Below, one piece after another: positions 8,244-23,795 of a stretch of 50,750 nucleotides of DNA. The notes under the pieces were generated by a model. That model saw nothing but the letters and a program-made list of their open reading frames with translations. It was not told the DNA's origin and did no database searches. The position numbers and the translations under genes are program-made. Positions within the stretch are counted from its first letter, which is position 1. Each line of letters begins with the position of its first letter. The stretch is from Nitrososphaerota archaeon. GTDB lineage: Archaea; Thermoproteota; Nitrososphaeria; Nitrososphaerales; Nitrosopumilaceae. The DNA lies in assembly GCA_028867785.1 (NCBI GenBank), contig JAGWFS010000002.1, positions 337,504-388,253 on the forward strand, in the 5' to 3' direction.

Positions 8244-8252
8244 TTTATTCCT

Positions 8253-9818
8253 CTATACTAGTAAAGATGGTTCTAGAATTAACGCAACTTTTCCATCTGG
8301 CAATATGGTCGCATCTGAAAATGTTGCTAACGAATTGGACATGCTGTCAAGACGTTTTATTACCACTTCTTGTTCTTTTTCAAGGGAATCTACAATCAAA
8401 CCGTATGATTTTCCATCTTTGTCTACAATCACTATGTTCACCTGAGTATCGCTGCTTTCATCATGTTTGGCATTCAAGCCAAGCGCTTTTGAAGCTCTTA
8501 TTACAGGAACAACATTGTCTCGAAGAGTTATCATCTCTTTCCCATGCACACGTTTTATCTCCTTATTGTCAACAGTGAGCGTGGTTGCAATGCTTGAAAG
8601 TGGAAGAACATACTTCTGATCAGATATGCTGACTAGCAATCCGCCTATTATGGCCAAGCTCATAGGTATGGTTAGTGTAATGGTTGTACCTTGTCCTTTT
8701 TCTGTAGTTATCTTTACATGTCCACCGACATTTCTGACTTGTGTCATCACCACATCCATGCCGACTCCCCTTCCAGATATGTCAGTTACAGTCTTTGCCG
8801 TAGAAAGGCCAGGCATGCCAATTAATTCAGCAATCTGTTCGTCTGACATGTGTGCTAAATCTTCTTGTGATATGATCTTCTTTTCTAGTGCCTTTGTTTT
8901 GACGGCTTCTAGATCAATACCTCTCCCATCATCAATGACGTGAATTTCAACTCTGTCCCCTACACGGCTTGCCTTCAATTGTATTGTTCCGGTTTCAGGC
9001 TTGCCTGATTTTTTTCTTTGATCAGTGGTCTCCAAGCCATGATCAACTGCATTTCTGAGCATGTGTAAAAGAGGATCAGTGATTGCATCAAGCACGGTAC
9101 GATCCAATTCAATACCTGATCCTTCTACCTCCAGCTTGACCTCCTTCCCCAGGGATGTTGAGACATCTCTTACCATCCTGGAAAAACGGTTAAAGATTTG
9201 ATCTATTGGAACTAGTCTAATTTTCATTGTTTGATATTGAATATCAGTGATCAATCGTCCTAGGTTCATGAGTACTTCCACGCCTTCATCAGAATTGTGT
9301 GTTTGTACTACCTGGTCCAACTGCATCTTAGCTATCATCATTTCCCCCACTAAATTTACAAGCGAATCGAGATCTTGCATCTTTACCCTTACAGTTGGCG
9401 ATTTGATTTGTTGCGAAGATGTCGGATCAGTTTCAGAGCCATTTGCCTTAAACTCGTTGGGATTCTTAACATAATTTAGAAACTCATCCAGATCAATCTT
9501 TTTTGTCTCGTCGTTTACTAGTTGTCTTAAATGATCGATTCCAAGAAATATGATATTTCCAAGCTCTGGGGTGATGGTGGTATCTCCTCTTCTGAACTCT
9601 TCAAAAATTCCTTCAATTGTCTTGCATATCTCTCGGATTTGATCATACCCCATTGTGGCAGCCATGCCTTTTAGAGTATGTGCAGATCTAAATACGACGT
9701 CAACGTGCTCCTTTACGTTTGGCTCTTCCTCATATTTCAAAAGATAGCTGTTCAGATTCTCTACATGCTCCAAGGCCTCTTGCACAAACATCTCTCGGTA
9801 TTTGCTGTTTTCAGACAT
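8253..9818 (-). CDS. cheA: CheA chemotaxis histidine kinase, short form lacking P2
   Basis: A 521-residue CheA, shorter than the usual ~650 or more. The Hpt (P1) domain holds the phospho-His near residue 47 in 'SAHTLKGMA'. A short linker (~120-145) then leads directly to the dimerisation domain ('LVNLVGEMMIAKMQLDQ'), the ATP-binding domain ('HMLRNAVDHGLE', 'DDGRGID', 'GRGVGMDVV') and the C-terminal CheW-like P5 domain. A typical P2 CheY/CheB-docking domain is not evident. It autophosphorylates under control of receptor/CheW and passes phosphate to CheY and CheB. Its start overlaps the end of cheB by eight bases, indicating translational coupling. Confidence 0.95.
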   Translation of the reverse strand: MSENSKYREMFVQEALEHVENLNSYLLKYEEEPNVKEHVDVVFRSAHTLKGMAATMGYDQIREICKTIEGIFEEFRRGDTTITPELGNIIFLGIDHLRQLVNDETKKIDLDEFLNYVKNPNEFKANGSETDPTSSQQIKSPTVRVKMQDLDSLVNLVGEMMIAKMQLDQVVQTHNSDEGVEVLMNLGRLITDIQYQTMKIRLVPIDQIFNRFSRMVRDVSTSLGKEVKLEVEGSGIELDRTVLDAITDPLLHMLRNAVDHGLETTDQRKKSGKPETGTIQLKASRVGDRVEIHVIDDGRGIDLEAVKTKALEKKIISQEDLAHMSDEQIAELIGMPGLSTAKTVTDISGRGVGMDVVMTQVRNVGGHVKITTEKGQGTTITLTIPMSLAIIGGLLVSISDQKYVLPLSSIATTLTVDNKEIKRVHGKEMITLRDNVVPVIRASKALGLNAKHDESSDTQVNIVIVDKDGKSYGLIVDSLEKEQEVVIKRLDSMSNSLATFSDATILPDGKVALILEPSLLV

Positions 9819-10872
9819 CTTGTTTTACCACCTTGATTATTTCCTGCGCCAATTCATCGGCATCTACCATCTTGTCAACAGCGTTAAGTTCGCTTGCAGA
9901 CTTGGCCATTCCAAAGACAACTGACGAAGATTTGCTTTGTGCAAGTGTGACACCGAGTCGTTTTTTTATCATTTTCATCCCAAATGCTCCATCTTGGCCC
10001 ATCCCGGACAAGAGTATGCCTATGGCATTGGCTCCAAATGCCTCAGATGCCGAGACCATTGTTACATTAACAGACGGTCTGACTCCAAATCTTTTTGGAC
10101 CGTGGTTCAGTTTTATTCTGCGAGATGACGCAACTTCCATGTGCACGTCTCCTGGTGCAAGCAATGCTACGCCATCCTGTATCAAGTCATTTTCGGCAGC
10201 CTGTCTGACATGTAATTGCGAGACCTCGTCAAGCCTTTCTGCAAAAGACGAGACAAATTCTTTGGACATGTGTTGCACAATTAGAAATCCGGCAGAGATG
10301 TCCTTTGGAATTTCTCGGAGAATGTTTGTTATGACATGTGGAGCTCCGGTTGATGCTCCGATGACTACTACTTTTGATGCTGTCTCATCTGATGCACTGT
10401 TTTTGATAATAGTTGGACGTAGCTTTGAGATAGCTCTTGGAACCAAGACATCAGGATTGGATCTAGAAGCAGTCTCTATTTTTGACACCAGTATGCGCTT
10501 TAGGTTTTGCAGGATCTCGCCGTCATCTTGAGGTACGGCTACAAAGTCAACTGCACCCAGTTCTAGCGAATCAAGGATGATCTTGGCTCCTGATTTGTTG
10601 TAATTACTGACAACGATAATGCTGACCTTTTTTTCTTTCATCACCGTTTCAATAAAGGACAGTCCGTCCATGTTAGGCATTTCAAGATCAAGCAGTATCA
10701 CATCAAGTTTCAAATGTCTGACTTTGCGTAGAGCTTCAAGCCCGTCCCGGGCCGTTTCAACTATTTTTATATTATTTTCGGAAGATAACAAGTCGCGTAA
10801 TAGCTCTATCATGTAGGGAGAATCATTTACTATCATGAGGTTGATCTGATTCCTCTCAGATGCTGTCATCAT
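9811..10872 (-). CDS. cheB: CheB receptor methylesterase/deamidase with atypical receiver
   Basis: A 353-residue CheB: receiver (residues ~10-125) followed by a methylesterase domain (~160-350). The esterase triad is visible as Ser in 'VIGASTGAP', His in 'IVQHMSKEF' and Asp in 'SGMGQDGAF'. The receiver keeps the phosphoacceptor ('ILLDLEMPNMDG', Asp62) and the Ser ('VVSNY'). However, the first acidic pair is Asn-Asp ('MIVNDSPY'), and the usually invariant Lys is replaced by Val ('DFVAVPQ', residue 113). CheB removes receptor methyl groups when activated by CheA. The receiver changes suggest altered activation kinetics. It begins 2 bases after the cheY stop and overlaps cheA. Confidence 0.93.
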   Translation of the reverse strand: MMTASERNQINLMIVNDSPYMIELLRDLLSSENNIKIVETARDGLEALRKVRHLKLDVILLDLEMPNMDGLSFIETVMKEKKVSIIVVSNYNKSGAKIILDSLELGAVDFVAVPQDDGEILQNLKRILVSKIETASRSNPDVLVPRAISKLRPTIIKNSASDETASKVVVIGASTGAPHVITNILREIPKDISAGFLIVQHMSKEFVSSFAERLDEVSQLHVRQAAENDLIQDGVALLAPGDVHMEVASSRRIKLNHGPKRFGVRPSVNVTMVSASEAFGANAIGILLSGMGQDGAFGMKMIKKRLGVTLAQSKSSSVVFGMAKSASELNAVDKMVDADELAQEIIKVVKQDV

Positions 10873-10874
10873 GA

Positions 10875-11258
10875 TTATCTCGCCCTGATGACTTTGCTTA
10901 TCACCATAGCTACGTTGGATCTGTCAAACGGTTTTATCACGTAATCTCGTGCTCCTGCTCTCATGGCATCCTGCACAATGTGTTTTTGTTCAACAGATGT
11001 CACCATGACTACTTTTGCTTTGGAGTTAAACTGCATGATGGCTTTTAGCGCTTGGATTCCATCTGCCTTTGGCATGTTGACATCCATTGTTACTATATCT
11101 GGCTTAACCTGCCTGTACGATTCTACTGCTGCTACGCCATCCCCTGCCTCATAGACTTGAGATACAAGGCCGTGCGATACAAGAATGTCTTTCAAGACAA
11201 CCCTCATAAATGAGGCATCATCCACAATCAGAATTTTTGCCGCGCCGGTTGTAGACAT
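10875..11258 (-). CDS. cheY: CheY chemotaxis response regulator
   Basis: A 127-residue single receiver with all canonical residues: acidic pair 'IVDDAS', phosphoacceptor Asp59 in 'VTMDVNMPKADG', Thr in 'MVTSVEQ', Tyr and Lys in 'RDYVIKPFD'. It carries the signal from CheA to the archaellum motor. In archaea this step normally needs the adaptor CheF, which I do not see in this window. It lies between cheW and cheB with 2-3 base gaps. It is the intact counterpart of the diverged receiver at 6132. Confidence 0.94.
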   Translation of the reverse strand: MSTTGAAKILIVDDASFMRVVLKDILVSHGLVSQVYEAGDGVAAVESYRQVKPDIVTMDVNMPKADGIQALKAIMQFNSKAKVVMVTSVEQKHIVQDAMRAGARDYVIKPFDRSNVAMVISKVIRAR

Positions 11259-11261
11259 GTT

Positions 11262-11744
11262 TTATTTCTCCTGGGGTGAAAAAGACGAATCTTCTTCCAA
11301 AAGTTTTACCACGTCCAAAAGCACAATGAGTTTTCCAGAGGTTTTTGCTATGCCGTTTATGTACTCCAATGACTCAAGACCGCCTGAAAGGTTTGTCTCT
11401 ACCTCTTTTAATGAAATTCGCATGACCTGATCAACTTCGTCAATTAAGAGTCCTGTAAGCTTGCCTTTTACATCAGCTACAAGGATGCGGGCCTTTGGGC
11501 CTGCTTCGCAGCTACTAAAGCCTAGTTTTTCTTTTACGTCAACTACTGGAACTATCATACCTCTTAGATTCATGACCCCCTTGACATAGCTCTTGGCATT
11601 TGGTACCTTGGTGATTGATTCCAGTGGTCGTATCTCCCGTACCTGTTCTATAGACACGCCATAATCTTCTTTCTTGGTTGTTTTTTGATCAACCAAGCTG
11701 AATACCACTACCTGCAAGTTTTCTTTAACAACTGTCTCGCTCAT
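11262..11744 (-). CDS. cheW: CheW coupling protein
   Basis: A 160-residue CheW, of usual length, made of the two SH3-like subdomains. Typical stretches are 'YGVSIEQVREIRPL', 'VKGVMNLRGMIVPVVDVKEKLG' (the LRG(x)I/VPVVD signature) and 'GLLIDEVDQVMRI'. It bridges the receptor hairpin tip and the CheA P5 domain. Its ATG overlaps the stop codon of the upstream receptor gene (TAATG), so receptor and coupler are translationally linked. The C-terminal ~15 residues are acidic and Ser-rich. Confidence 0.95.
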   Translation of the reverse strand: MSETVVKENLQVVVFSLVDQKTTKKEDYGVSIEQVREIRPLESITKVPNAKSYVKGVMNLRGMIVPVVDVKEKLGFSSCEAGPKARILVADVKGKLTGLLIDEVDQVMRISLKEVETNLSGGLESLEYINGIAKTSGKLIVLLDVVKLLEEDSSFSPQEK

Positions 11745-13093
11745 TACTGCACCACTGCCTCCTCACTTACTCTTTGTGAGCCAGATGAATCGGAATCATC
11801 TGGTAGTTTGAATCCAGACGCAATTTTTGAAAGGCCATCTGCCATGCCCGCCATTTTTTGTACTGATGCGGCGATTTCTTGGGTTCCAGCCGTTTGCTGT
11901 TCTGTTGCTGCCGAGGCCTCTTCAGTCGCAGACGCGTTCTGTTCGGAGACTGCTGCGATTTCGGATGCGGCCTTTGATAATTGTTCTATTGCAGTGACTT
12001 GTGAATTAGTAGTATTTGCCACATCTGTCACGTTTACCGATACCTCCTTTACTTTTGTGGCTATCTCGTTGAGGGCCTTTAATGCCTTGTCTATGACAAG
12101 CCTTCCTTCAGATATTTCCTTACTGCCGCCTTCTATGCTCTGTACTGTAGATTTTGCGTCATCCTGAATTTGTTTTATTAGGCCGTCTATTTCTTCAGAT
12201 GATTTGGCAGAGCCCTCTGCGAGTCTTTTTACCTCATCAGCTACTACGGCAAATCCTCTTCCTGCCTCACCTGCACGGGCTGCTTCAATGGCAGCATTCA
12301 ATGCAAGCAGGTTTGTCTGGTCGGCAATTTTTCGTATGACTTCCAAAACTGCTGTAATTTCACTGCTCCTGTCGGCCAACTCTTTGATCTTTTTAGATGA
12401 TTCTTTAGTCACGCTGATTATCTTTGACATTCTAAAGTCCGCTTCCGATGCAGATTTCGAACCACTCTCTGATATGATGCCTACTTCTCTAGTAAGATCA
12501 GATGTCATGCTGGCTTTTAATGCAAGGTCTTTCATGTCTTTTGTGAGCTTTGTTACCACTTTGCTAGTTTGTTCCAACTCTTGTGCTTGGGTCTGTGAGC
12601 CTTTTGATATCTGCTGAATTGTGGAAGAAATTTGCTGTACTGACGAATTCATTTGTTCGGTAGAAGAAACGATCTGGTCTGAATTGGAAGCAACCAAGGT
12701 CGAGCTATCCCTTACTTGCATTACCAATTGCCTCAGGTTGGCTACCATGTTGTTAAACGCCAGAGTTAATTTGCCAAGTTCGTCGTTTGATTTTGACTCT
12801 ACGATACCAACAGTGAGATCCCCCTGACCTATTTTTTCTGCCATCGTTGCCATTCTAAGTATCGGTCTTGTGAAAGAACGTGCCACAAAATAAGCAGGTA
12901 TTCCTACCACTGCCTGCATTATCATTCCTGTTACGATATAACGCATAGCATCATCGGTACCGGCGTGTCCCCCTGCAGAATAGCTGGAAAAGGAGACAGT
13001 TGCTATCGAGATGGCAGATGCCACATTTACCATTGCGTTGATTTTTGTTTTTAGTCCTATTTTGAAGAATTTTCCCATGTTCATTTGTGTCAT
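11744..13093 (-). CDS. methyl-accepting chemotaxis protein with minimal ectodomain
   Basis: First gene of the chemotaxis operon. Two transmembrane helices (about residues 20-40 and 52-74 from the chosen start) are separated by only ~15 residues, so there is no periplasmic ligand domain. A HAMP domain follows ('[20 protein letters not shown]'), then a long methylation/coiled-coil helix and the invariant hairpin tip ('[20 protein letters not shown]'). Such receptors often sense the membrane state, internal signals or a partner transducer. The frame opens at GTG 13126; I prefer ATG 13093 because the first 11 residues are not receptor-like. No C-terminal CheR-docking pentapeptide is evident. Confidence 0.92.
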
Positions 13094-13213
13094 AATTTTT
13101 ATTGGATGTACCAATAATATGTTCACGTGTGTTTGAATTGATCATACACAAAAACTTGTACCGTATTTTAGGACGGAATTAGGTTATTGAATAATTGTAG
13201 AAAAGAGTATTGC

Positions 13214-13477
13214 CTACTCTTTCATGCGGTCGAGATTTCCCCTTAACTCCTGCTCGACTTCCATTGCGCGCAGCTTCGAGTTGACAATATTGTGAAGCAA
13301 CTCTTCATCGTGCCTCGCCAGTGCCCTTTCTTCCAGTCTCACCAGCTCTTTTTTCACGTATTCTATATGCGACAACCCCCATCTGTATCCGTCCTCCTTG
13401 CTTAATGGCTCCGTTTCTTGCATTCTTAGAGCATCCCATATCCCTTCAAATGGGCGGTCCTTGGAGATATCAGGCAT
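13214..13477 (-). CDS. small charged helical protein, unknown
   Basis: An 87-residue protein (MPDISKDRPFEGIWDALRM...) rich in Glu, Arg and Leu, predicted to be mostly helical with a possible coiled coil in its second half. I do not recognise the family. The frame runs back to a TTG at 13486; ATG 13477 is preferred. A TATA-like 'GTATATAAAA' lies on the same strand near 13522-13531. It sits just upstream of the chemotaxis operon and downstream of the soluble receptor, in the same direction, so a role as a chemotaxis accessory is possible but unsupported by homology. Confidence 0.6.
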   Translation of the reverse strand: MPDISKDRPFEGIWDALRMQETEPLSKEDGYRWGLSHIEYVKKELVRLEERALARHDEELLHNIVNSKLRAMEVEQELRGNLDRMKE

Positions 13478-13603
13478 CACTGCCAATTCTGCGACCGAGA
13501 ATTAAAACGATTGGGAGTGTTTTTTATATACTGCGGCACCGTTCTGATTCTTCCCTGTCTTGGGACTGCCTGCTTCAGTCTTGCTGTATCTAGGTAAGAA
13601 TAA

Positions 13604-14737
13604 TCAAGACTGGAGATTCTGAATAAGAAGAGAATGCCACTGGGAAGAATATGTCTCATATCCGGGAGAAAATGCGTGCGCTATGCAGCATTTTTCATCT
13701 TTGTATTCGGACACCGCAAATCCTTTCTTCTGGCTAAATAGATCGTTTTTACCTAGGAATTCAATTGTCTCCTCGAGTTCAAGATCTTTAGAGTCTGCAA
13801 GCAGCAGGCCATTCTTATCTACTATGCAAATTCTCGTTCTGTCCTTTTCTTCATCAGATATTGGAACGCCTTTTACGATGTTTTGTGCCAAGTCCTGCCA
13901 GCGAAATATGCCACCAAGTATGCCCAGAACTTGCCCGTTCTGGTCTCCATGTTCTCTTATTGTGCAGGAAAACACGAGACTGAGATCATTATTGACCATT
14001 GGGCATTTGCTGACTGTCTGAAATCCAAACTCTTTTCCGCTGTTGGTCTTCATTGCACTGGCAAACCATTCTGTGTTTTTTACATTCATGCCGACTGATC
14101 TATATGTCTCAGGTTTTCCATTTGCAACTATGTTTCCATCCAGATCGCACAAGACCAAGTCAAAATAAACAGTATAAGAATTCAATATGATGCCCATCCG
14201 TCTTGTTACTATATCGTACACTTCATTGGTCTTCAATGATAACGCGTTAACAACACTGTCATCGGTTGCCCACCAGCGTACATCGCATGATCTTTCATAC
14301 AGGTTTCTATCAATCAAATCAATGTTAGTCAGCGCAAGATCAGAAAGCCTGGTTCCTCTGACATTTGTAGCCTGTGTCTTTATGAGATTTCCCAGTTCGT
14401 CTATGGAGTCCCTGCTCTCATTTCTCATTTTCTTACTTACCACTCCGATCTTGCCCGAAAGATCGTTCATTTGTTCGGCAACAACTGAAAATGCCTTTCC
14501 AGCCATACCGGCCCTGCTTGCCTCAATTCTTGCATTGATTGCAATCATGTGCGTTTGCCCGTTCAATCGTTCTATCTCGCCTATTGCCGATTCTACTTTG
14601 CCTGCAAGAATCTCTGACAATTCTGCAACTCTTTCAAGCGTAAAGCTGCCGCCTTTTCCTTTTGCAGTGCTGGATTCTTGTAGCAGTGAGGTTGGCTTTG
14701 ACATGTTACTCATCCTAATCCACTTACTAGAAGACAA
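13604..14737 (-). CDS. soluble MCP-like receptor with C-terminal Cache-like domain (inverted order)
   Basis: A 377-residue protein without transmembrane segments. Near the N terminus (residues ~60-105) is a chemoreceptor signalling tip ('MIAINARIEASRAGMAGKAF', then 'SVVAEQMNDLSGKI'), the part that binds CheW/CheA. The C-terminal two thirds (~165-375) look like a PAS/Cache sensor, with 'DLVLCDLDGNIVANGKPE', 'NTEWFASAMKTNSG' and 'ICIVDKNGLLLADSKD' typical of double-Cache strands. Normal receptors place Cache outside the membrane and N-terminal to the signalling hairpin; here the order is reversed and everything is cytoplasmic. It probably senses an internal metabolite and feeds the adjacent Che system. 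Start at ATG 14737; ATGs at residues 8 and 12 are alternatives. Confidence 0.8.
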   Translation of the reverse strand: MSSSKWIRMSNMSKPTSLLQESSTAKGKGGSFTLERVAELSEILAGKVESAIGEIERLNGQTHMIAINARIEASRAGMAGKAFSVVAEQMNDLSGKIGVVSKKMRNESRDSIDELGNLIKTQATNVRGTRLSDLALTNIDLIDRNLYERSCDVRWWATDDSVVNALSLKTNEVYDIVTRRMGIILNSYTVYFDLVLCDLDGNIVANGKPETYRSVGMNVKNTEWFASAMKTNSGKEFGFQTVSKCPMVNNDLSLVFSCTIREHGDQNGQVLGILGGIFRWQDLAQNIVKGVPISDEEKDRTRICIVDKNGLLLADSKDLELEETIEFLGKNDLFSQKKGFAVSEYKDEKCCIAHAFSPGYETYSSQWHSLLIQNLQS

Positions 14738-14963
14738 TCAGAGTCTTATAGAATGACGTATGTTTGATGCAAACATACAGAGGATGATTGCCGCATTACT
14801 CTACTGGGTTGAAATAAGTCAGTATGCACGAGCGGTAGTATATAGAATAGGTTAGAATCTAACATAGTTTGTGCCAATTTAGCATCGTTTTTTGCCCATT
14901 CATTCTGCGTCTCCTCACACCATGTTTTGCAAGATAGTTTGTTCAATACAGACAGACTTGTCC

Positions 14964-14970
14964 ATAATAC
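14964..14970 (+). promoter_or_regulatory. TATA-like box of first archaellin gene
   Basis: ATAATAC lies 31-25 bases before the archaellin ATG. The same ATAATAC occurs at nearly the same distance before the second copy, although the upstream sequences are otherwise unrelated. This spacing fits a leaderless archaeal transcript. Confidence 0.45.
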
Positions 14971-14987: not shown

Positions 14988-15691
14988 ACAACCAATGAAC
15001 TCATCAAGACGTCGAACTCGTCGTGGAGTCATGGGTATAGAAGCTGCAATTGTTATGATTGCATTTGTAATAGTAGCTGCAGCTCTAGCATTCGTTGTAC
15101 TCAACATGGGTTTCTCGACTACACAAAAGGCAAAGATGGCAGTAGTCTCAAGTCAGACCGAAGCAAGTAGTGCACTAGAGATTGCCGGCAAGGTCACAGG
15201 TATAGGATTCCCAGCCAGTGGAGTGCTCAACGCCACCATCATACCAATCAAGGTTGCAAGTGGCGGAGATGCAGTCAACCTAAGTCCGACCCTTACCGAC
15301 ATCAAGTACTACAGCAATACAGTACGATACGACAACATCTATTCAAGCAAGTGCTTGCTGACATCTGCAACATATGGAAACGTAACAGGAGCGTTCAATG
15401 CAGCCGTATCAGCAACCTGCATCGACAAGGCGCCAATAAGCGGTGCTGCCACACCAGGTGCTCCGACCCATACACAGGCTATGATCTACTGGGATGTCGC
15501 AGGCGGCGTTCCGCTCAACGGCATACTTAGTGAGGGACAGCATGCAAACGTTGCAATAGCATACCAAAGCTCAGACAGACCAAGTGCACTTGACAACATC
15601 AAGGCAGAGATCATCGTACCAACCGGCTCTGCACTGACTATCGAGAGACAGGTACCGTCAGTGACTACAAACATAGTTGATCTAGGATAGG
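14988..15691 (+). repeat. 704-bp direct repeat, copy 1 (archaellin gene)
   Basis: The sequence from seven bases before the archaellin ATG to one base after its stop recurs at 16933-17636 with no difference that I could see. Flanks diverge immediately on both sides. The two copies are offset by 1,945 bases and bracket the cupredoxin gene. Confidence 0.9.
14995..15690 (+). CDS. flaB: archaellin (major archaellum filament protein), copy 1
   Basis: A 231-residue archaellin. A class III (type IV pilin-like) signal peptide, MNSSRRRTRRG, is followed by the hydrophobic helix 'VMGIEAAIVMIAFVIV'; cleavage by the prepilin peptidase FlaK/PibD is expected after Gly11. The rest is a beta-rich, Thr/Ser-rich globular domain that forms the filament surface. 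The product is 100% identical to the copy at 16940. A strong T-run follows the gene, so this copy is probably a monocistronic, highly expressed unit, while copy 2 leads the fla operon. The identical DNA implies very recent duplication or ongoing gene conversion. Confidence 0.94.
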   Translation: MNSSRRRTRRGVMGIEAAIVMIAFVIVAAALAFVVLNMGFSTTQKAKMAVVSSQTEASSALEIAGKVTGIGFPASGVLNATIIPIKVASGGDAVNLSPTLTDIKYYSNTVRYDNIYSSKCLLTSATYGNVTGAFNAAVSATCIDKAPISGAATPGAPTHTQAMIYWDVAGGVPLNGILSEGQHANVAIAYQSSDRPSALDNIKAEIIVPTGSALTIERQVPSVTTNIVDLG

Positions 15692-15712
15692 TCACAAACT
15701 TATTCTAGAAAC

Positions 15713-15727
15713 TTTTTCTTTTTTTTT
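15713..15727 (+). terminator. T-rich terminator after archaellin copy 1
   Basis: A 15-base stretch with 14 T residues begins 23 bases after the archaellin stop. Archaeal RNA polymerase terminates at such runs. It would separate archaellin copy 1 from the cupredoxin gene. Confidence 0.55.
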
Positions 15728-15867
15728 ACTAAAATTACAGATATTATTTTAAATCTTCAAAAGTATGTCCGCGGTCAATACCGTACTAGAATACTAGCAG
15801 AGTGGCCTGCTTGTAAGTTTAATTTGAACAAGCTTGTTTTTATTTCAGGCAAATATGCCGTAGAGCC

Positions 15868-16863
15868 ATGGATCTGCGCTACGTCGCAATTTTTTCAATT
15901 GGTTTAATGTTATTTTTATCATCCCATGCCGCACTCGCCGATAATAATTCCGGCATATCGTGGAAGATAGCCTTTAAGAAAAACGGAACAAGTGCAAACA
16001 GTACAATCTTTTGGCCTCCAGAACTACAGGCAAGACAAGGCGACATGATAACATGGATGAATAATGATACCACGGCTCATACCATCACAAGCGGTGTGAC
16101 GGAGCATCTGAATTACTCCGGCAAGGTATTTGATAGCGGGGTTTTAAGCCCGGGACAGGAATATTCCTTCAAAATTCCGTCCGGAGTCTGGTCTGCATAT
16201 TACTATTTTTGCAGAATTCATCCGTGGATGACTGGAAAAATCGATGTAAGCGACGCATACCTTGGAAAATCTCCAATATCTACAATCTCAACTGACAAAA
16301 ACTCCTACTCCAGCGGTGATACCATGCAAATATCAGGAATTGTAAACGATACTTCACAGATAATGCCGTTGACAATACAAATATTCGATAGCCAAAGGAA
16401 CATGGTTTTTTCAGACAGGACCAACCTATTAAGCGATGATAGTTTTATGTACAAATTAAAAGTCACAAACACTGTCTTCAAGACATCAGGAATATACAAG
16501 ATCAAAGGATATTATGGATTTCCCGCTACTGTGACAGACGTTAATTTTTTCTTTAACGGTCAAAATCAGAATTCTACAAACACAAATTCTGATTCCTACA
16601 AGATCCCGTACTGGGTGAAGAACACCGCCAAATGGTGGTCTCAAAACCAGATTAGCGACAATGACTTTATCAAAGGCATCCAGTTCCTAATCACAACAGG
16701 GGATTTGAAGACAAATATGCCTGCTCATGCATCGATGAAGACCAACATCATTCCAACATGGGTTAAAAGCACCGCTGGATGGTGGGCAGACGGTACAATA
16801 TCGGATGCAGATTTCATTTCAAGCATACAATATCTCATAGATCATGGCATAATCAATGTTTGA
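15868..16863 (+). CDS. secreted plastocyanin-like copper protein with C-terminal paired repeats
   Basis: A 331-residue exported protein with a Sec signal peptide (residues 1-25, 'FLSSHAALAD'). Residues ~30-125 form a type I copper (cupredoxin) domain with ligands His71 ('TTAHTIT'), Cys115, His118 and Met121 ('FCRIHPWMTG'). A ~110-residue Ig-like beta domain follows ('TDKNSYSSGDTMQISG'). The C terminus has two ~30-residue copies of a motif: 'IPYWVKNTAKWW...ISDNDFI' and 'IPTWVKSTAGWW...ISDADFI'. Small blue copper proteins are abundant electron carriers in ammonia-oxidising archaea. A TATA-like TTTTTATTT lies ~28 bases upstream of the ATG. Its placement between identical archaellin genes is unusual and may be incidental. 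Confidence 0.88.
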   Translation: MDLRYVAIFSIGLMLFLSSHAALADNNSGISWKIAFKKNGTSANSTIFWPPELQARQGDMITWMNNDTTAHTITSGVTEHLNYSGKVFDSGVLSPGQEYSFKIPSGVWSAYYYFCRIHPWMTGKIDVSDAYLGKSPISTISTDKNSYSSGDTMQISGIVNDTSQIMPLTIQIFDSQRNMVFSDRTNLLSDDSFMYKLKVTNTVFKTSGIYKIKGYYGFPATVTDVNFFFNGQNQNSTNTNSDSYKIPYWVKNTAKWWSQNQISDNDFIKGIQFLITTGDLKTNMPAHASMKTNIIPTWVKSTAGWWADGTISDADFISSIQYLIDHGIINV

Positions 16864-16909
16864 CATGATGAAAAAATCTCATGTTTGATCATAACAAACA
16901 TACTCGAGA

Positions 16910-16916
16910 ATAATAC
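16910..16916 (+). promoter_or_regulatory. TATA-like box of second archaellin / fla operon
   Basis: ATAATAC 30-24 bases before the archaellin ATG, matching the element before copy 1 although the surrounding bases differ. It is the likely promoter of the archaellum operon. Confidence 0.45.
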
Positions 16917-16932
16917 GTCACAAAATCCTATT

Positions 16933-17636
16933 ACAACCAATGAACTCATCAAGACGTCGAACTCGTCGTGGAGTCATGGGTATAGAAGCTGCAATTGTTA
17001 TGATTGCATTTGTAATAGTAGCTGCAGCTCTAGCATTCGTTGTACTCAACATGGGTTTCTCGACTACACAAAAGGCAAAGATGGCAGTAGTCTCAAGTCA
17101 GACCGAAGCAAGTAGTGCACTAGAGATTGCCGGCAAGGTCACAGGTATAGGATTCCCAGCCAGTGGAGTGCTCAACGCCACCATCATACCAATCAAGGTT
17201 GCAAGTGGCGGAGATGCAGTCAACCTAAGTCCGACCCTTACCGACATCAAGTACTACAGCAATACAGTACGATACGACAACATCTATTCAAGCAAGTGCT
17301 TGCTGACATCTGCAACATATGGAAACGTAACAGGAGCGTTCAATGCAGCCGTATCAGCAACCTGCATCGACAAGGCGCCAATAAGCGGTGCTGCCACACC
17401 AGGTGCTCCGACCCATACACAGGCTATGATCTACTGGGATGTCGCAGGCGGCGTTCCGCTCAACGGCATACTTAGTGAGGGACAGCATGCAAACGTTGCA
17501 ATAGCATACCAAAGCTCAGACAGACCAAGTGCACTTGACAACATCAAGGCAGAGATCATCGTACCAACCGGCTCTGCACTGACTATCGAGAGACAGGTAC
17601 CGTCAGTGACTACAAACATAGTTGATCTAGGATAGG
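16933..17636 (+). repeat. 704-bp direct repeat, copy 2 (archaellin gene)
   Basis: Second copy of the direct repeat at 14988-15691. Homology ends one base after the stop codon, just before the ribosome-binding site of the next gene. Confidence 0.9.
16940..17635 (+). CDS. flaB: archaellin (major archaellum filament protein), copy 2
   Basis: Identical in every residue to the archaellin at 14995, with the same class III signal peptide and predicted cleavage after Gly11. Here no terminator follows; the next gene starts 11 bases after the stop with a GGAG ribosome-binding site. This copy therefore heads the polycistronic archaellum operon (flaB-flaX/DE-flaG-F-H-I-J). Most archaea with several archaellins use diverged copies for hook-like and filament segments; identical copies suggest a gene-dosage role instead. 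Confidence 0.94.
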   Translation: MNSSRRRTRRGVMGIEAAIVMIAFVIVAAALAFVVLNMGFSTTQKAKMAVVSSQTEASSALEIAGKVTGIGFPASGVLNATIIPIKVASGGDAVNLSPTLTDIKYYSNTVRYDNIYSSKCLLTSATYGNVTGAFNAAVSATCIDKAPISGAATPGAPTHTQAMIYWDVAGGVPLNGILSEGQHANVAIAYQSSDRPSALDNIKAEIIVPTGSALTIERQVPSVTTNIVDLG

Positions 17637-17646
17637 AGAAAGTGAC

Positions 17647-18864
17647 ATGGGAATAATCACTGCCAATCCACTTTTTTTACTTGCAAGGATATCAAAAAAT
17701 ACACGAATTTTCGTAGCGGCAAGCATAATATCTTGCTATGGCCTGTTTTTGTACGAACTGTTTCCGGAATATATTTTCATTCCGACATTGTCGCTGCTCT
17801 ATTTTGCGCTACCATCTATTGTAATAGCCATCGCACTTGTGATATTGCCAAGGATGTTGTCAAAAGACGCCCAAACACAGCAGCAAGACATCATCGGATT
17901 GTCAGAGCAAATGTCTCAACCGCAGTTTGAGACAGTTTCAATGGAAAATGCAAAAGAACAAGGCATGATTTTGCCAGACAGTAATGTTATCGTCGAGCCC
18001 CAAAATGCAGTTCAAGGCCAGATGGCAGGGCTTGAAGCTGTAAACTCGGCAACAATTCCAACTCCGGCTGTCGACGAGACTGCCGTCCAAGACATGGTGT
18101 CAAGAGCCACGGAGTCCGTACAGAAGGATAACTTGAGACTGCAAGACACGATAACTGACCTGAGAAACGAAGTAAATACAATCAAAGATAGCATGAATTC
18201 CCTAGTATCAACAGTAGAGTCTTCCTTGACTGATCTCAAATCGTTCCAGGCGGAGCTTGCAAACCCGTTAAATTTTATGCGAAAGTACTTTGATTCCATT
18301 GATATCAAGTCACTGTCTGATCCGACCCTTCCCCTGCACATAGAACAGATGCCTCCATCAGACTCGGTACAGAGTACAAATGCCGAGAAAACCGAGTCTG
18401 ACATGGTCAAAACGGAGGCATTGGACAGCAACACGATGAGCAAAGAAGGCATGCAAGACCAGATTGTGAAAAATAAGGACATTAGCGATATGCCTGCAAA
18501 CGACCCACAAGTGCTGACATTTAAGCAAATGCTTGGTGGAAAGCTCACTTTGGGCAAATTAATGACAACTGTATCTCTTATGGAGGAAATCCTGCAAACA
18601 TTAGGAAGGGACTCCATAGACGTATTAATTGATCAATGCAAGCTCATGGGGCTAAACCCGGAAGATGAGCACATTGTCTATAACGTAGTCAACATGATGG
18701 ACAAGTCGGGTTTGTCTGTTAGCGACACACTGATCATGTTATACAAGTTTGGCAAAGTAATGGGCATGAATGACAGAGAATCGGATTTGATTTATGCAAA
18801 GTTAATGATGAATCAAGGTAAAAATCATGATAATGTGTTAACAGTGGAAAAGAAGGCCGGGTAA
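17647..18864 (+). CDS. archaellum membrane/coiled-coil protein, FlaX- or FlaD/E-like
   Basis: A 405-residue protein placed exactly where crenarchaea have flaX and euryarchaea have flaC/D/E. Two hydrophobic helices (about residues 20-38 and 45-67) are followed by a low-complexity polar stretch, a coiled coil (~150-205, 'DTITDLRNEVNTIKDSMNSL') and a C-terminal helical domain (~290-390). The segment 'LMEEILQTLGRDSIDVLIDQ' followed by 'CKLMGLNPED' faintly resembles the FlaD/E signature (Trp-rich in euryarchaea, with '..LDYY..IGWI'), but the Trp residues are missing. In crenarchaea FlaX forms the ring round the motor; in euryarchaea FlaC/D/E receive the CheY/CheF signal. This protein may combine both. 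GGAG precedes the ATG. Confidence 0.7.
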   Translation: MGIITANPLFLLARISKNTRIFVAASIISCYGLFLYELFPEYIFIPTLSLLYFALPSIVIAIALVILPRMLSKDAQTQQQDIIGLSEQMSQPQFETVSMENAKEQGMILPDSNVIVEPQNAVQGQMAGLEAVNSATIPTPAVDETAVQDMVSRATESVQKDNLRLQDTITDLRNEVNTIKDSMNSLVSTVESSLTDLKSFQAELANPLNFMRKYFDSIDIKSLSDPTLPLHIEQMPPSDSVQSTNAEKTESDMVKTEALDSNTMSKEGMQDQIVKNKDISDMPANDPQVLTFKQMLGGKLTLGKLMTTVSLMEEILQTLGRDSIDVLIDQCKLMGLNPEDEHIVYNVVNMMDKSGLSVSDTLIMLYKFGKVMGMNDRESDLIYAKLMMNQGKNHDNVLTVEKKAG

Positions 18865-19338
18865 ATGGCATCTGCGGTTTTCACGGAGGCAATACTGATA
18901 ATAGCCTCAGTAATAGTGGCTGCCGGACTTGCAGGCATGGTGATGACAAAGGTTGGCTCGTTCCAATCAACCTTTACGCAAACTACAGAGAATCAGAAGC
19001 AAACTGTCCTGACAAGCATCAAACTGATCTACATCACGAATGCGACAAAAACCAGCGTCAACGCGTGGGTAAAAAATGTCGGTTCCTATCCTATCACTAG
19101 TCCCACAAATACCGACGTATATTTTGGTCAGATTAATCAAATGCAGAGGATACCGTATGTCTACCCATCATCAGGGCTATCTTGGGCATTTTCAAATCCA
19201 GTGTCAGTTTGGAATCAGGTAGATACATTACAGATAAACATTTCAAATCTGCCTACAATTCAATGTGCCTCGACATATGATCTTCAGATAACTACCCCAA
19301 ATGGAGTAAGTGATCAGCAATTTACAAGATTCTGTTGA
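18865..19338 (+). CDS. flaG: archaellum stator protein FlaG
   Basis: A 157-residue protein with an N-terminal hydrophobic helix ('EAILIIASVIVAAGLAGMVM') resembling the archaellin helix, followed by a beta-sandwich domain ('VNAWVKNVGSYPITSPTNTD'). This matches FlaG, which with FlaF forms a complex anchored to the S-layer. It starts directly at the stop of the preceding gene (TAAATG). A short C-terminal tail ends in Cys. The assignment rests on the fold pattern plus the conserved gene order G-F-H-I-J. Confidence 0.85.
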   Translation: MASAVFTEAILIIASVIVAAGLAGMVMTKVGSFQSTFTQTTENQKQTVLTSIKLIYITNATKTSVNAWVKNVGSYPITSPTNTDVYFGQINQMQRIPYVYPSSGLSWAFSNPVSVWNQVDTLQINISNLPTIQCASTYDLQITTPNGVSDQQFTRFC

Positions 19339-19354: not shown

Positions 19355-19879
19355 ATGGGACTAAGCATTGCAATTTCTGGTGGCATCGTGATTTTCTCCA
19401 TAATCTACGCCATGATGTCTTTTTCCACCGTAGTGGATGACGCCACAAAGATAAGTACCTCCCAGACCCAGATGTCAAACAACCTGTTTTCACGGTTGCA
19501 GACAAACATAAGCATTTCAAGCTTGCATGACAATAGAGGCGCAGGCCCGGCCACTTTTAAAATCAATGACACTGGAAACACTGTACTGTGGAACTACAAC
19601 AGCTTTGACGTGATTGTAACATATCAGGAAAACGCCACAAACAATCCGATTCTGACTGAAATCCTAAAGTATGCAAACACTTGCTCCGGACTAGCTGCCG
19701 GCCAATGGTGCATCTTGCAGATTCAAAACGACAACATCCATCCAGGAATGCTTGATCCAAGCGAGGTTGCTGTGATAAACGCACAGCCGTCAAATCCAAC
19801 CTTGGGAGGCGGCATCTTTACGGTAGAATTTGGGACAGATAACGGAGTTACGACTTCGAGTTCGGTGAAAACAACATGA
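19355..19879 (+). CDS. flaF: archaellum stator protein FlaF
   Basis: A 174-residue protein with an N-terminal membrane helix ('ISGGIVIFSIIYAMMSF') and an extracytoplasmic beta-sandwich ('GPATFKINDTGNTVLWNYNS'). FlaF binds S-layer protein and FlaG, acting as the stator. Two Cys residues ('NTCSGL...QWCILQ') may form a disulphide outside the cell. A purine-rich GGATGAGG ribosome-binding site lies just before the ATG. Its end overlaps the start of flaH by four bases. Confidence 0.87.
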   Translation: MGLSIAISGGIVIFSIIYAMMSFSTVVDDATKISTSQTQMSNNLFSRLQTNISISSLHDNRGAGPATFKINDTGNTVLWNYNSFDVIVTYQENATNNPILTEILKYANTCSGLAAGQWCILQIQNDNIHPGMLDPSEVAVINAQPSNPTLGGGIFTVEFGTDNGVTTSSSVKTT

Positions 19880-20577
19880 TAAAGACAGTACCCACGAGCA
19901 ATGAAGAAGTAGACAGACAATTAGCAGGAGGCATACCCACCCCTTGCCTCATGCTGATAGAAGGCGAGCACGGAACCGGAAAAAGCGCCCTTACCGCACA
20001 GTTCATCAAGGGAATGCTAAACCAGGACATGAAAGTTCTATGCATTACGGAAAACACAGTAAAAGACTATATTGAAAAGATGAAGACAATCACCTTCAAT
20101 TTTACCAAACCGTTTTTGCAAAACAAATTCACAATACTGCCGCTGCATGTGTACGGTGCAATGTGGTCTGAACGGCAATCATCCTTCCTGCTACCCGTAA
20201 TTGGCCGATACATCAGCAGTAATGCAAAGAAATGTGATGTCGTGGCAATAGATTCCATATCTCTCTTGACTATGTATTCTAATGCAGATCAAATTCTTGA
20301 TTTTCTCACAAGAATCAAACACTTGGTATCAATTGGCATGTCCATCATACTTACCATGCACGCAACATCAATTCCCGAAGACGTTGCACTAAGAATCAAA
20401 TCAGCATGCGACGTCTACTTTTCCCTCAGCACATCCAGCATAGGAGGCAAGTCGGTCAAGATCATGAAAGTAATAAAAATGATAGGTTCCACATCGCAGG
20501 CAGAGCCATCTTTTGCATTCGAGGTGGATACCAACTTTGGAATAAAGATTGTGCCAATATCAACGGCAAACGCTTGA
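19876..20577 (+). CDS. flaH: archaellum motor ATP-binding protein FlaH
   Basis: A 233-residue RecA/KaiC-like protein. Walker A is 'EGEHGTGKSAL' and Walker B 'VVAIDSISLL'. The C-terminal 'FEVDTNFGIKIVPIS' strand is typical of FlaH. FlaH binds ATP at the base of the motor and regulates FlaI. Its length is normal. The ATG overlaps flaF (ATGATAA), giving coupled translation. Its stop lies 33 bases before the likely flaI TTG codon. Confidence 0.93.
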   Translation: MIKTVPTSNEEVDRQLAGGIPTPCLMLIEGEHGTGKSALTAQFIKGMLNQDMKVLCITENTVKDYIEKMKTITFNFTKPFLQNKFTILPLHVYGAMWSERQSSFLLPVIGRYISSNAKKCDVVAIDSISLLTMYSNADQILDFLTRIKHLVSIGMSIILTMHATSIPEDVALRIKSACDVYFSLSTSSIGGKSVKIMKVIKMIGSTSQAEPSFAFEVDTNFGIKIVPISTANA

Positions 20578-20610
20578 GAGGAGTACAGGCATGGCGTACA
20601 AAAAAACAGG
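20576..20610 (+). promoter_or_regulatory. flaI ribosome-binding site and slippery start region
   Basis: GAGAGGAG at 20576-20583 is an excellent Shine-Dalgarno match, placed seven bases before ATG 20591. That ATG reads MAYKKTGCGLQ and stops. A run of seven A follows the third codon. Slipping back one base there gives MAYKKNRLWFAVSFNV and joins the flaI frame. Without slipping, flaI must start at TTG 20611 or GTG 20623, both badly placed for the SD. Confidence 0.5.
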
Positions 20611-22293
20611 TTGTGGTTTGCAGTGAGCTTTAACGTATCACTAGTAAAAGACAAAAAGTTTGCCGAGGCCTTGAGAAAATCATCCCACCTGTACAATTAT
20701 CTGGCAACCTATGTCGAAAGGGGAAACCCGATTCCAATCTACACTGAAAAACTAGAGGGCGAGCACAAGAAACTCAGAGAACCCAACCTGATCTATCCCA
20801 TATCTGACACCACGTACATACACGTCAACCCGCACTCAAACTCTGCCGACGGGTTTGTGGAATATTCAATAATTGAACCAGACGAGCCAGACAGGACACT
20901 GATGGATAATGCAGACAGACTGTTCGCGCTGCATGCCGGTGCCATGGATCCTCCAGTTGAGCTTACGGAGCGATTCAACATGATGGACCAATACCTGGAC
21001 AAAACCATGTCAGTCAACAACAGTCCTGTAGATTATTCTAAAATTGATGTGACAAAGATGAAGCACCTTCCGGTTTACGAGAAAGACGTTGTAAACCTAA
21101 AGTATCATTTTTTAAGGAGAAGGGCTGGCATGGGACTGCTTGACCCGTTCTTGACAGACCCTCATCTTGAGGACATTTCAGTGGTAGGTGCTGGAAACAT
21201 GTACGTGATACATAAAATGTTCGGAGCTCTCAAGTGTCCGGTATTTCTCAGCGTTGAAGAAATAGATGATCTCATAATTAGCATGTCGGAGCAGTTTGGA
21301 AAGACTGTATCTCACGCAAAACCTGTCATAGATGCCACTCTGCCGGAAGGTTCCAGAATCAACATAGTATTTGGCAAGGATGTGAGCAGAAAGGGAACAA
21401 ATGCGACAATCAGAAGGTTTGCAAGCACGCCTCTTTCCATAACCCAGATACTCCCAAGCAAGACCCTCAATTCCACAGAGGCTGCATACCTGTGGATGAT
21501 GATGTCAGAGGGCATGAGCGTCTTCATCAACGGCGAGACGGCATCTGGAAAAACAACCACAATGATGGCGCTGACTGCATTCATTCCTTCCAACTGGAAG
21601 ATAGTAAGTATCGAGGACACACCTGAGCTTACGCTGCCGCACTCCAACTGGATTAGCGAGGTCACGAGGGATACTGGAAATCCTAACTCAAGTGTGACCA
21701 TGTTTGATCTTCTAAGGGCGGCTCTAAGACAGAGGCCAAATTACATATTTGTTGGAGAGATAAGGGCGGCAGAGGCCAACGTTGCATTTCAGGCAATGCA
21801 GACAGGCCATCCCGTCGTAAGTACGTTTCACGCAGCCAACATGACTGCATTGATACAGAGAATTACCAACCCCCCCATGAACATACCAAAGACCAACGTG
21901 GAAAACCTGAACATTGCGTTATTTCAGGCCGCGGTTACAGGCCCCGATGGAAAGAGAGTGAGAAGGGTGCTATCAATCAACGAAATTCTCGGATACAACC
22001 CGGAAGGAAACAACGTAATGTTCATCCCGGTTTTCAACTGGGATCCCGGCGAAGACGCGGTAAAGTTCCGGGGAAAGGGAAGTAGTGCCCTGTTTATTTC
22101 CAAAATGCTTGAAAAAAGGGGCATGTCAAGAAAAGACGAGGTCCTCTTGTATGAAGAGCTTGCAATGAGGGCCAAGATTCTGGACAAGATGGTAGAAAAA
22201 AAGATCTTCAACTTCTATGATGTCTACGATTCCATATCGCGCTGCAGAGATATTGGTTTGGATGCCTTCATGAAGGAGCTTGATATGCTGTGA
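20611..22293 (+). CDS. flaI: archaellum motor/assembly ATPase FlaI
   Basis: A 560-residue secretion-type ATPase. It powers both filament assembly and rotation. The N-terminal domain includes 'DPFLTDPHLEDISVVG'; the catalytic core has Walker A 'NGETASGKTTT', the Asp box 'SIEDTPEL', Walker B 'IFVGEIRAAEA' and the His box 'STFHAAN'. All catalytic elements are intact. The frame is open from 20578 with no in-frame ATG; TTG 20611 is the first conventional start. An SD-ATG pair sits in the neighbouring frame before a run of seven A, so the true N terminus is probably MAYKK-NRLWF through a -1 slip or an A-tract sequence error. GTGA overlaps the next gene. Confidence 0.92.
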   Translation: MWFAVSFNVSLVKDKKFAEALRKSSHLYNYLATYVERGNPIPIYTEKLEGEHKKLREPNLIYPISDTTYIHVNPHSNSADGFVEYSIIEPDEPDRTLMDNADRLFALHAGAMDPPVELTERFNMMDQYLDKTMSVNNSPVDYSKIDVTKMKHLPVYEKDVVNLKYHFLRRRAGMGLLDPFLTDPHLEDISVVGAGNMYVIHKMFGALKCPVFLSVEEIDDLIISMSEQFGKTVSHAKPVIDATLPEGSRINIVFGKDVSRKGTNATIRRFASTPLSITQILPSKTLNSTEAAYLWMMMSEGMSVFINGETASGKTTTMMALTAFIPSNWKIVSIEDTPELTLPHSNWISEVTRDTGNPNSSVTMFDLLRAALRQRPNYIFVGEIRAAEANVAFQAMQTGHPVVSTFHAANMTALIQRITNPPMNIPKTNVENLNIALFQAAVTGPDGKRVRRVLSINEILGYNPEGNNVMFIPVFNWDPGEDAVKFRGKGSSALFISKMLEKRGMSRKDEVLLYEELAMRAKILDKMVEKKIFNFYDVYDSISRCRDIGLDAFMKELDML

Positions 22294-23795
22294 AGCAAAA
22301 GACAACCTTAAAGGAAAAACTTGCATCGATTAAGAAGGCTGACGACGAGTTTGTTTACTTTGTGGCATTTCTTTATGCGCTTTCTACAGGAGAGGTCGGA
22401 TCAGTCGACCTGATAAAAACGGCACAGTCTTCCGGTTATGGAAAATACTCCAACACGTTCAAGGATGTCTTCAGGCTCGGCGTAGGATGGGGATACGGTC
22501 TTGCAAAGTCATGCGAGATGATCGCAGCAAAGTTTCCAGACAACACTGACCAGATGAAGCAGCTCCTAGTAAAACTGGCCCAAGTCATACGGCTTGGAGA
22601 CGAGCTGAGAATATTCTTTACAGACGAAATATCTGCCACCATACATAATTTTACGATAAGATACGAACGTAGTTTGGAGACGCAGAAGCTCTTTCTCGAG
22701 ATGTTTTACACAATCTCATCCACTGCAGTCTTTATGATATCTGGAAATTCCATCATGACCATGCTCATGGGCAGTACAGATTCCCAGTCTGTGTTTACCA
22801 TCTCGTTTATTAGCGTAATTGCGAGCATGGGGTCGTTTATCTTTATCATGTATATGATATTTCCAAGGGACAGGATAGCCGTTGGGGACAACGAAAAGAC
22901 CAAGAAGTTCAGGAAGCTTCTCTACATGTCTATTGGCATGGGAGCATCCATCGGTATTGTGCTATCCGTCATGAACGTCATTCCTCTACCATTGGTGGCT
23001 GTCATTGCCACTGCCCCCCTGTTCATTCCAGGATACTATGCCAAGAGGATGGAATCAGACCTGCAAGCTCTTGAAGAGTGGTACCCGTCATTTGTCCGAC
23101 ATTTTGGGGAGATATACATGATGGTGGGATCAATTGGGCAGACACTTGACGCCGTACTCAGAAGCAACTTTGGCCCGCTTCAGAAGCAGATAATTGCTTT
23201 CAAGAACCGAATAAAGAACAGAATCAATCCAAACACAGGATTCAATCTATTCTCACAGGAGGCAGGTACGGCAGTCATAATGGCAGGAAATACAATAATG
23301 GCAAATGCCATGCAAAAAGGCTCAAACATGAACGAGGTTGGCAACAAAATTTCCGAGATATCATTAAAACTAAATGAGCTCAGGGCAAAAAGGAGACAGA
23401 CATCAAGGACGTTTGAGACCATTGTCTTGGTGCTACACGCTCTTACTATGGCAATATTTGGCCTGATGAACAAACTTATCGAGATATTTCACACCATGAT
23501 TTCCAGCACCCAGATCTCAAACAATGCCATAACTTTGAGCCCCATCGATCCTCATTTCATGGCAATGATGATGCCGTTTGTCATATTGATTACATCTGCC
23601 ATCAACGGCTTGGCAATCAAAGTCGGACAGGGAGGGCTTTTCAAGACAGTATGGTTCAACATAGCCATGCTTACTGCACTAGGCGGTGTAGCAATGTATG
23701 GAACAACGATGGCACTATCAAAGTTCCTGGAAAACCACATACTGGACATATCCACCACCAGTACCCACATGGTGCTCTTTTTGAAACTGTTTTGA
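22290..23795 (+). CDS. flaJ: archaellum membrane platform protein FlaJ
   Basis: A 501-residue polytopic membrane protein of the T2SSF/TadC family. Two cytoplasmic four-helix domains (about residues 40-130 and 255-370) alternate with transmembrane clusters (~145-190, ~212-245, ~375-500). FlaJ anchors FlaI and the growing filament. The start is GTG at 22290, overlapping the flaI stop (GTGA). It is the last gene of the archaellum operon; a convergent receiver gene begins 42 bases downstream on the other strand. Confidence 0.93.
   Translation: MKQKTTLKEKLASIKKADDEFVYFVAFLYALSTGEVGSVDLIKTAQSSGYGKYSNTFKDVFRLGVGWGYGLAKSCEMIAAKFPDNTDQMKQLLVKLAQVIRLGDELRIFFTDEISATIHNFTIRYERSLETQKLFLEMFYTISSTAVFMISGNSIMTMLMGSTDSQSVFTISFISVIASMGSFIFIMYMIFPRDRIAVGDNEKTKKFRKLLYMSIGMGASIGIVLSVMNVIPLPLVAVIATAPLFIPGYYAKRMESDLQALEEWYPSFVRHFGEIYMMVGSIGQTLDAVLRSNFGPLQKQIIAFKNRIKNRINPNTGFNLFSQEAGTAVIMAGNTIMANAMQKGSNMNEVGNKISEISLKLNELRAKRRQTSRTFETIVLVLHALTMAIFGLMNKLIEIFHTMISSTQISNNAITLSPIDPHFMAMMMPFVILITSAINGLAIKVGQGGLFKTVWFNIAMLTALGGVAMYGTTMALSKFLENHILDISTTSTHMVLFLKLF

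Follow-up and report, generated by a model that had tools for sequence, protein, structure and literature searches.

The closest described systems include flaA and flaB of Campylobacter, two filament genes with 95% identity that are under sigma-28 and sigma-54 control (PMC5126078) and for which concerted evolution has been published (Meinersmann and Hiett 2000, cited in PMC8535712). Long-lasting, recurrent concerted evolution has been described in prokaryotes (Wang and Chen 2018, PMC6053082). Multi-archaellin operons with up to nine paralogues are known (PMC4858521), as is an archaellum filament with two alternating subunits (PMC8821640); each of these sources is drawn on here in part. We analyse two archaellin genes, identical over 704 base pairs (bp) and separated by a cupredoxin gene, in a stretch of 50,750 nucleotides (nt) from a Nitrososphaerota archaeon (the window, meaning the whole stretch of DNA analysed), which genome-level sequence matching of the window places in Candidatus (Ca.) Nitrosotalea. 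Sequence comparison makes it highly probable that the duplication is older than the divergence among the Nitrosotalea species sampled, and that gene conversion has repeatedly homogenised the copies within each genome.

As in Campylobacter, two near-identical filament genes with different promoters would evolve in concert. Unlike flaA/flaB, the archaellin is unrelated to bacterial flagellin and serves a different machine; here a cupredoxin gene lies between the copies, and identity stops at the coding sequence. The locus shares with the cases of Wang and Chen, in the part of that work covered, that duplicates are closer within a genome than between species and that this recurs in several species; it differs from them in that an intervening gene and position-specific flanks speak against re-duplication. 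Seven archaeal genes are reported there, all from methanogens, and archaellin is absent from the examined part of the table. We found no earlier report of gene conversion or concerted evolution of archaellins in the open-licence literature, subscription papers being outside our scope. The process would be ordinary gene conversion. Concerted evolution is known for bacterial filament genes, and the archaellin case appears new within the literature covered.

Two archaellin genes identical to the edges of the coding sequence

The source assembly (G000) comprises 2,545,500 bases in 327 contigs, and both repeat copies lie on contig C222. The elements concerned are the following (aa, amino acids; ORF, open reading frame):

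14988..15691, + strand: repeat copy 1, 704 bp, identical to 16933-17636
14995..15690, + strand: archaellin gene copy 1, 231 aa (ORF; PF01917; TIGR02537; predicted fold)
15713..15727, + strand: T-rich run just 3' of copy 1 (sequence; in relatives, copies other than the last are likewise followed by T-rich stretches)
15868..16863, + strand: gene for a cupredoxin-domain protein of 331 aa, between the copies (PF00127, 27.5 bits against a cut-off of 21.2)
16933..17636, + strand: repeat copy 2, 704 bp, identical to 14988-15691
16940..17635, + strand: archaellin gene copy 2, 231 aa, first in the archaellum operon (ORF; the next ORF starts 11 bp past its stop)

The copies form a maximal ungapped run with 0 differences, which begins 7 bp ahead of the ATG, takes in the entire 231-codon gene and reaches 1 bp past the stop; the adjoining bases differ at both ends. 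An initial annotation had described exactly this, with flanks diverging at once and a copper-protein gene in between, and our comparison bears it out on both counts. An exact match of this length is far beyond chance. The window holds no other repeat of at least 40 bp, direct or inverted, and beyond the two copies no DNA in the whole G000 assembly matches the repeat.

Both genes encode archaellin, on the evidence of profiles, family structures, predicted fold and motor-gene neighbours. Each matches PF01917 (81 bits, cut-off 29.5) and the TIGR02537 archaellin/pilin N-terminal domain (38.3 bits against 20), and carries the class III signal RRGVMG/IE, whose cleavage motif was read by eye. The structural model (predicted local distance difference test score 86.5) has a long N-terminal helix at 10-58 and another predicted helix at 130-139. 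Its best PDB match is the A. pernix filament 7txi (E 1.1e-15, template modelling score 0.62/0.72), and the solved structures matched by the family likewise point to archaellin. Models for ArlH, ArlI and ArlJ score over cut-off in the adjoining genes at 19876-23795. Copy 1 is probably its own transcription unit, and the T-rich run behind it is probably a terminator.

Coding sequences follow the genome and flanks follow the position

The order chemoreceptor, archaellin(s), cupredoxin, archaellin and operon is common to four species: G000, the draft of Ca. Nitrosotalea sp. TS (G017), and the single-contig genomes G006 and Ca. Nitrosotalea devanaterra LN890280.1 (G041). Orthologues of the cupredoxin lie at the same place in G017 (74% identity), G006 (52%) and G041 (53%). 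There are five archaellins in G006 and four in G041; in both, type A occupies the two outer places and type B the inner, tandem ones. Across nearly the full gene length the outer type A copies show few differences or none, even though their starts lie ~4.6 kilobases (kb) apart in G006.

These genomes bear on the suspicion that the identity is an artefact of assembly, one gene having been printed twice or two diverged genes having collapsed into one consensus. G000 is broken into 327 contigs, identical repeats are hard to resolve, and contigs of relatives do break at archaellin. Yet the flanks are conserved and particular to each copy, and the same holds in the single-contig G006 and G041, whose outer copies are identical across almost the full gene length; we therefore reject this explanation as very unlikely, although a few differences may have been collapsed in G000.

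We counted informative sites in the six quartets formed by the outer archaellin copies of G000, G017, G006, and G041, the genomes in which both positions are fully visible. In the G000/G017 quartet, sites grouping copies by genome and by position numbered 145 and 0 in the gene, 2 and 13 in the 100 bp upstream, and 0 and 22 in the 100 bp downstream. The counts for all six quartets (genome:position:third pattern) were:

Gene: 145:0:0, 79:2:0, 240:0:0, 241:0:0, 215:0:0, 213:0:0
100 bp upstream: 2:13:0, 4:18:0, 3:9:3, 3:12:2, 1:13:4, 2:11:3
100 bp downstream: 0:22:0, 0:32:3, 3:17:1, 1:13:6, 3:16:2, 4:17:1

A matrix of flank identities likewise grouped the copies by position (shuffled sequences: mean 0.58, maximum 0.65-0.67). 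At ~173 synonymous sites the G000 copies show 0 changes, which by the rule of three bounds their synonymous divergence (dS) below about 0.017; dS is 0.89 between G000 and G017, and about 1.4-1.6 from G000 to G006 and G041. Within genomes it is 0.01 for the outer pair of G006, 0.04 for that of G041, and 0.05 for the G017 pair. Paralogues are nearer to each other than to orthologues by dS and by informative sites. If the assembly is right, the last homogenisation would fall in roughly the last 2% of G000-G017 divergence.

The initial annotation had left open whether duplication was recent or conversion active. A very recent tandem duplication in this species only would account for 0 differences across 704 bp, but the same two positions, neighbours and conserved position-specific flanks are found in G017, G006 and G041. 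Moreover, a new copy would be expected to bring flanking DNA with it, yet the flanks differ at once. Unless the shared layout arose independently in each species, this possibility is refuted; we reject it and give it very little credence. The shared layout and position-specific flanks imply that the duplication predates the species split, and exchange between old copies is favoured because the coding sequence follows the genome while the flanks follow the position, which a new duplication cannot easily yield. The data are best explained by an old duplication with recent identity, that is, by concerted evolution through gene conversion confined to the coding sequence. Of the two options only conversion thus stands, with four species sharing positions and flanks and the coding sequence homogenised in each.

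Related but separate promoters

Each copy is preceded by the same two elements:

14938..14958, + strand: upstream box TTTGNTCA-N6-ACANACT of copy 1 (exact pattern match; relatives keep the box at about -56)
14964..14970, + strand: ATAATAC TATA-box-like element of copy 1, -31 from the ATG (equivalent element in relatives)
16884..16904, + strand: upstream box of copy 2 (exact pattern match)
16910..16916, + strand: ATAATAC TATA-box-like element of copy 2, -30 from the ATG (sequence)

Upstream regions of 20 archaellin copies (N-terminal fragments of G002, G003, and G004, in which no start was found by motif, were excluded) contain variants of TTTGNTCA, a 6-base spacer, ACANACT and a TATA-like element at a near-fixed distance from the ATG, the box lying ~56 bp and the TATA-like element ~30 bp ahead of it. 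GATCA marks the promoter form of the last copy and GTTCA that of the first, and each recurs across species. The box has only two exact matches in the G000 assembly, at the two archaellin genes, and may be the site of a regulator. Only exact matches are meaningful in this search, since allowing one mismatch gave 4 forward and 4 reverse matches, and a reversed control pattern also gave 4 and 4.

The shared spacing of box and TATA-like element, together with the restriction of the exact box to these genes, indicates that the promoters of the two copies are separate but related, each being conserved across species according to its position. The initial annotation had placed ATAATAC at the same distance in both copies and suggested that each copy was built into its own promoter. 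The element is indeed present in both, but it starts 31 bp ahead of the ATG in the first and 30 bp ahead in the second, so that the distance is not quite the same. Each copy does have its own promoter, but the promoters are related and look inherited with the old duplication rather than separately acquired by a new copy.

A near-palindromic relative of the box, with one mismatch on either strand, lies in an intergenic region ~90 bp before a 297-aa ORF (L044:1821-1843, that is, G000:C222:331820-331842). It may be due to chance, since the control gave as many one-mismatch matches.

One-copy relatives

Recombination between the copies had been predicted to delete the cupredoxin gene and one archaellin. 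Such a form is seen in G007 and G048, both metagenome assemblies, in which a single archaellin lies between the chemoreceptor and the operon. Upstream of it, G007 and G048 score 0.82 and 0.79 to copy 1 of G006 versus 0.65 and 0.63 to its last copy; downstream the resemblance is to the last copy of G006 (0.88 and 0.78, versus 0.60 and 0.59). Neither genome yielded a cupredoxin orthologue, the best matches being partial paralogues with 42-43% identity. Both are nested among multi-copy species (support 95/92 and 95/95) in a tree of 18 rows, in which G001 and G003 are under half filled and the outgroup G025 is on a very long branch; this implies two losses. Both genomes being metagenome assemblies, the case for this form being the predicted crossover deletion product is strong but not final.

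Clustered differences and contig breaks

Mosaic tracts are seen in three pairs of near-identical copies from relatives; the G000 copies are identical, hence none can be assessed there. The G017 pair has 30 differences, all within nt 200-593, and a longest identical run of 199 of 693 nt (p 0.0013, 10,000 shuffles). Copies 2 and 3 of G041 differ at 35 sites in nt 378-591, with a run of 377 of 690 (0 of 10,000 shuffles), and copies 2 and 3 of G006 at 10 sites in nt 435-475, with a run of 434 of 690 (p 0.0005). Differences are confined to codons 67-198 and densest at ~137-160 in all three pairs. Codons 137-160 come just after the predicted helix 130-139, and they may form a surface part of the filament that escapes homogenisation.

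In G006 (L032:7577-10073) the inner archaellins are arrayed in tandem as units of 902 bp; the first and third genes of this array are identical, and the second departs from them at 10 sites, all inside 41 bp. We also looked for sharing of island variants across species and discarded the idea: in nt 408-480 of the type B genes of G006 and G041, 0 sites were of genome type, 0 ABAB, 3 ABBA, and 25 otherwise variable. Elsewhere in these genes there were 29 genome-type sites (nt 1-377) and 11 (nt 601-690), with none of the other two types.

The shared location, in three genomes, of the densest differences between copies could recall a cassette system, in which a specific recombinase or silent donor copies swap archaellin variants for surface variation. 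However, the G000 assembly contains no further archaellin DNA, the window has no inverted repeats of at least 40 bp, and visual inspection of the ORFs listed at 9-24 kb revealed no recombinase; we reject such a system as scarcely credible.

Of 17 genomes with an archaellin match, 10 have the gene cut by the end of a contig, versus 1 of 18 for the longer ArlI gene of the same operon (Fisher p 0.0009). The two genome sets overlap without being the same, the ArlI set being defined by at least 80% identity; its one cut gene is the split ArlI of G002, and a frame break inside a contig of G017 was scored as not cut. As an example, four contigs of G049 end in archaellin: two share exactly 77 bp at the gene start, two share exactly 77 bp at the gene end, and all diverge just outside the coding sequence. 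Overlaps of this kind are what an assembler working with 77-base words would produce from identical, gene-bounded copies. No full cupredoxin orthologue adjoins archaellin on these contig ends (the best G049 match, 33% identical, is on another contig), and the second archaellin copy of G049 may sit elsewhere.

Archaellin copies outside Nitrosotalea

We compared 25 pairs of paralogues from 15 loci: L099 of Nitrosotalea sp. TS as a control (0.957), and 14 loci (24 pairs) outside the genus with at least two full archaellins. Loci were picked by eye for two full-length copies, excluding fragments and missing those where identical copies broke the assembly. As in the multi-archaellin operons of other archaea, several archaellin genes lie at or near the archaellum operon in Nitrosotalea; unlike there, where copies at the 14 loci are 66-79% identical with at most 119 exact shared bases, the longer matches falling near the gene start, they are homogenised over the gene. 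Among the loci sampled, homogenisation of the whole gene seems peculiar to Nitrosotalea, but the sample is biased, since identical copies cause assemblies to break. The cross-genome comparison that the initial annotation had proposed revealed no two old, diverging copies without conversion in Nitrosotalea; this outcome, which the initial annotation had named as refuting its reading, is what the other genera and lineages compared do show.

A further alternative, in which the copies do not exchange DNA and selection on the DNA or codon sequence itself preserves their likeness, is rejected as hardly credible at all. A stretch near the gene start is also the best-matching part between paralogues of other genera (exact matches up to 119 bp), but silent sites vary freely, with dS of 0.3-1.6 between species and of 0.36-0.60 between types A and B within G006 and G041.

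Neighbouring genes

The genes around the repeats are:

13604..14737, - strand: chemoreceptor-like gene, outer-flank marker of copy 1 in relatives (MCPsignal over cut-off; same neighbour in relatives)
17647..18864, + strand: 405-aa ORF in the ArlC/D/E place (named by position; ArlX match very weak, E 0.21)
18865..19338, + strand: ArlG-like (PF01917; ArlG 40.6 bits, under that model's cut-off)
19355..19879, + strand: ArlF-like (PF22201 and ArlF, both under cut-off)
19876..20577, + strand: ArlH (NF004723 FlaH over cut-off)
20611..22293, + strand: ArlI motor ATPase (NF058587, 593 bits, over cut-off)
22290..23795, + strand: ArlJ platform protein (NF004705, 571 bits, over cut-off)

According to the portion of PMC4858521 used here, FlaC/D/E proteins may diverge strongly. 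On the outer side of copy 1 lie chemotaxis genes (CheA-, CheB-, CheW-, and CheY-like) and chemoreceptors. In G017 (L033, about 7786-13947) ArlI, ArlJ and the 405-aa ORF are each frameshifted, probably through assembly indel errors rather than real decay. In G047 (L090:4333-5085) a type B archaellin stands alone, off the operon and with a promoter of its own; a cupredoxin-like protein and a universal-stress-like one (named by eye) are encoded nearby.

Discussion

We propose that an archaellin duplication arose before the sampled Nitrosotalea species split, and that recombination between the copies has since repeatedly homogenised the coding sequences in each genome. Promoters and downstream DNA, having diverged long ago, would no longer pair, which would keep the exchange tract within the coding sequence. 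Exchange may proceed as RadA-dependent, non-crossover conversion, an occasional crossover yielding the one-copy form of G007 and G048. The arrangement may serve to make much of one filament protein from two promoters, that of a stand-alone gene and that at the head of the motor operon.

Several points weigh against this proposal. The case for conversion is built from comparison of sequences, and a short-read assembler can print one consensus twice, masking a few differences in an assembly as fragmented as G000. Of the 81 informative sites inside the gene in the G006/G041 quartet, 2 follow position, homogenisation there ending short of the first codons, and part of the downstream signal is supplied by the next gene being coding. 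A closer query found no cupredoxin orthologue in the other archaellin-bearing drafts G018, G045, G049, and G014 (Ca. Nitrosotalea bavarica), among which the layout may vary, or a short inner contig may have been lost. As to the metagenome assemblies G007 and G048, it is possible that the inner segment was lost from G007, which is 76% complete.

A wider joint reading, which we regard as unlikely though worth stating, would set stand-alone 'bulk' genes, with a dedicated box and terminator, against an operon copy tied to motor synthesis. Conversion would fix the structural core while a surface patch (~137-160) varies fast, for instance against viruses, the polymer staying compatible. The cupredoxin gene would then act as a brake, because a crossover that removes a copy removes the cupredoxin too.

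Identical copies would explain why assemblies break at archaellin in this genus, and archaellins would consequently be under-counted in metagenomes. If gene conversion between old copies is the right explanation, the locus offers a clean natural example of it from an ammonia oxidiser among the archaea, in which the flanks serve as internal controls and single-contig genomes are at hand for testing. It raises the question of why filament genes stay identical here while related genera let theirs diverge.

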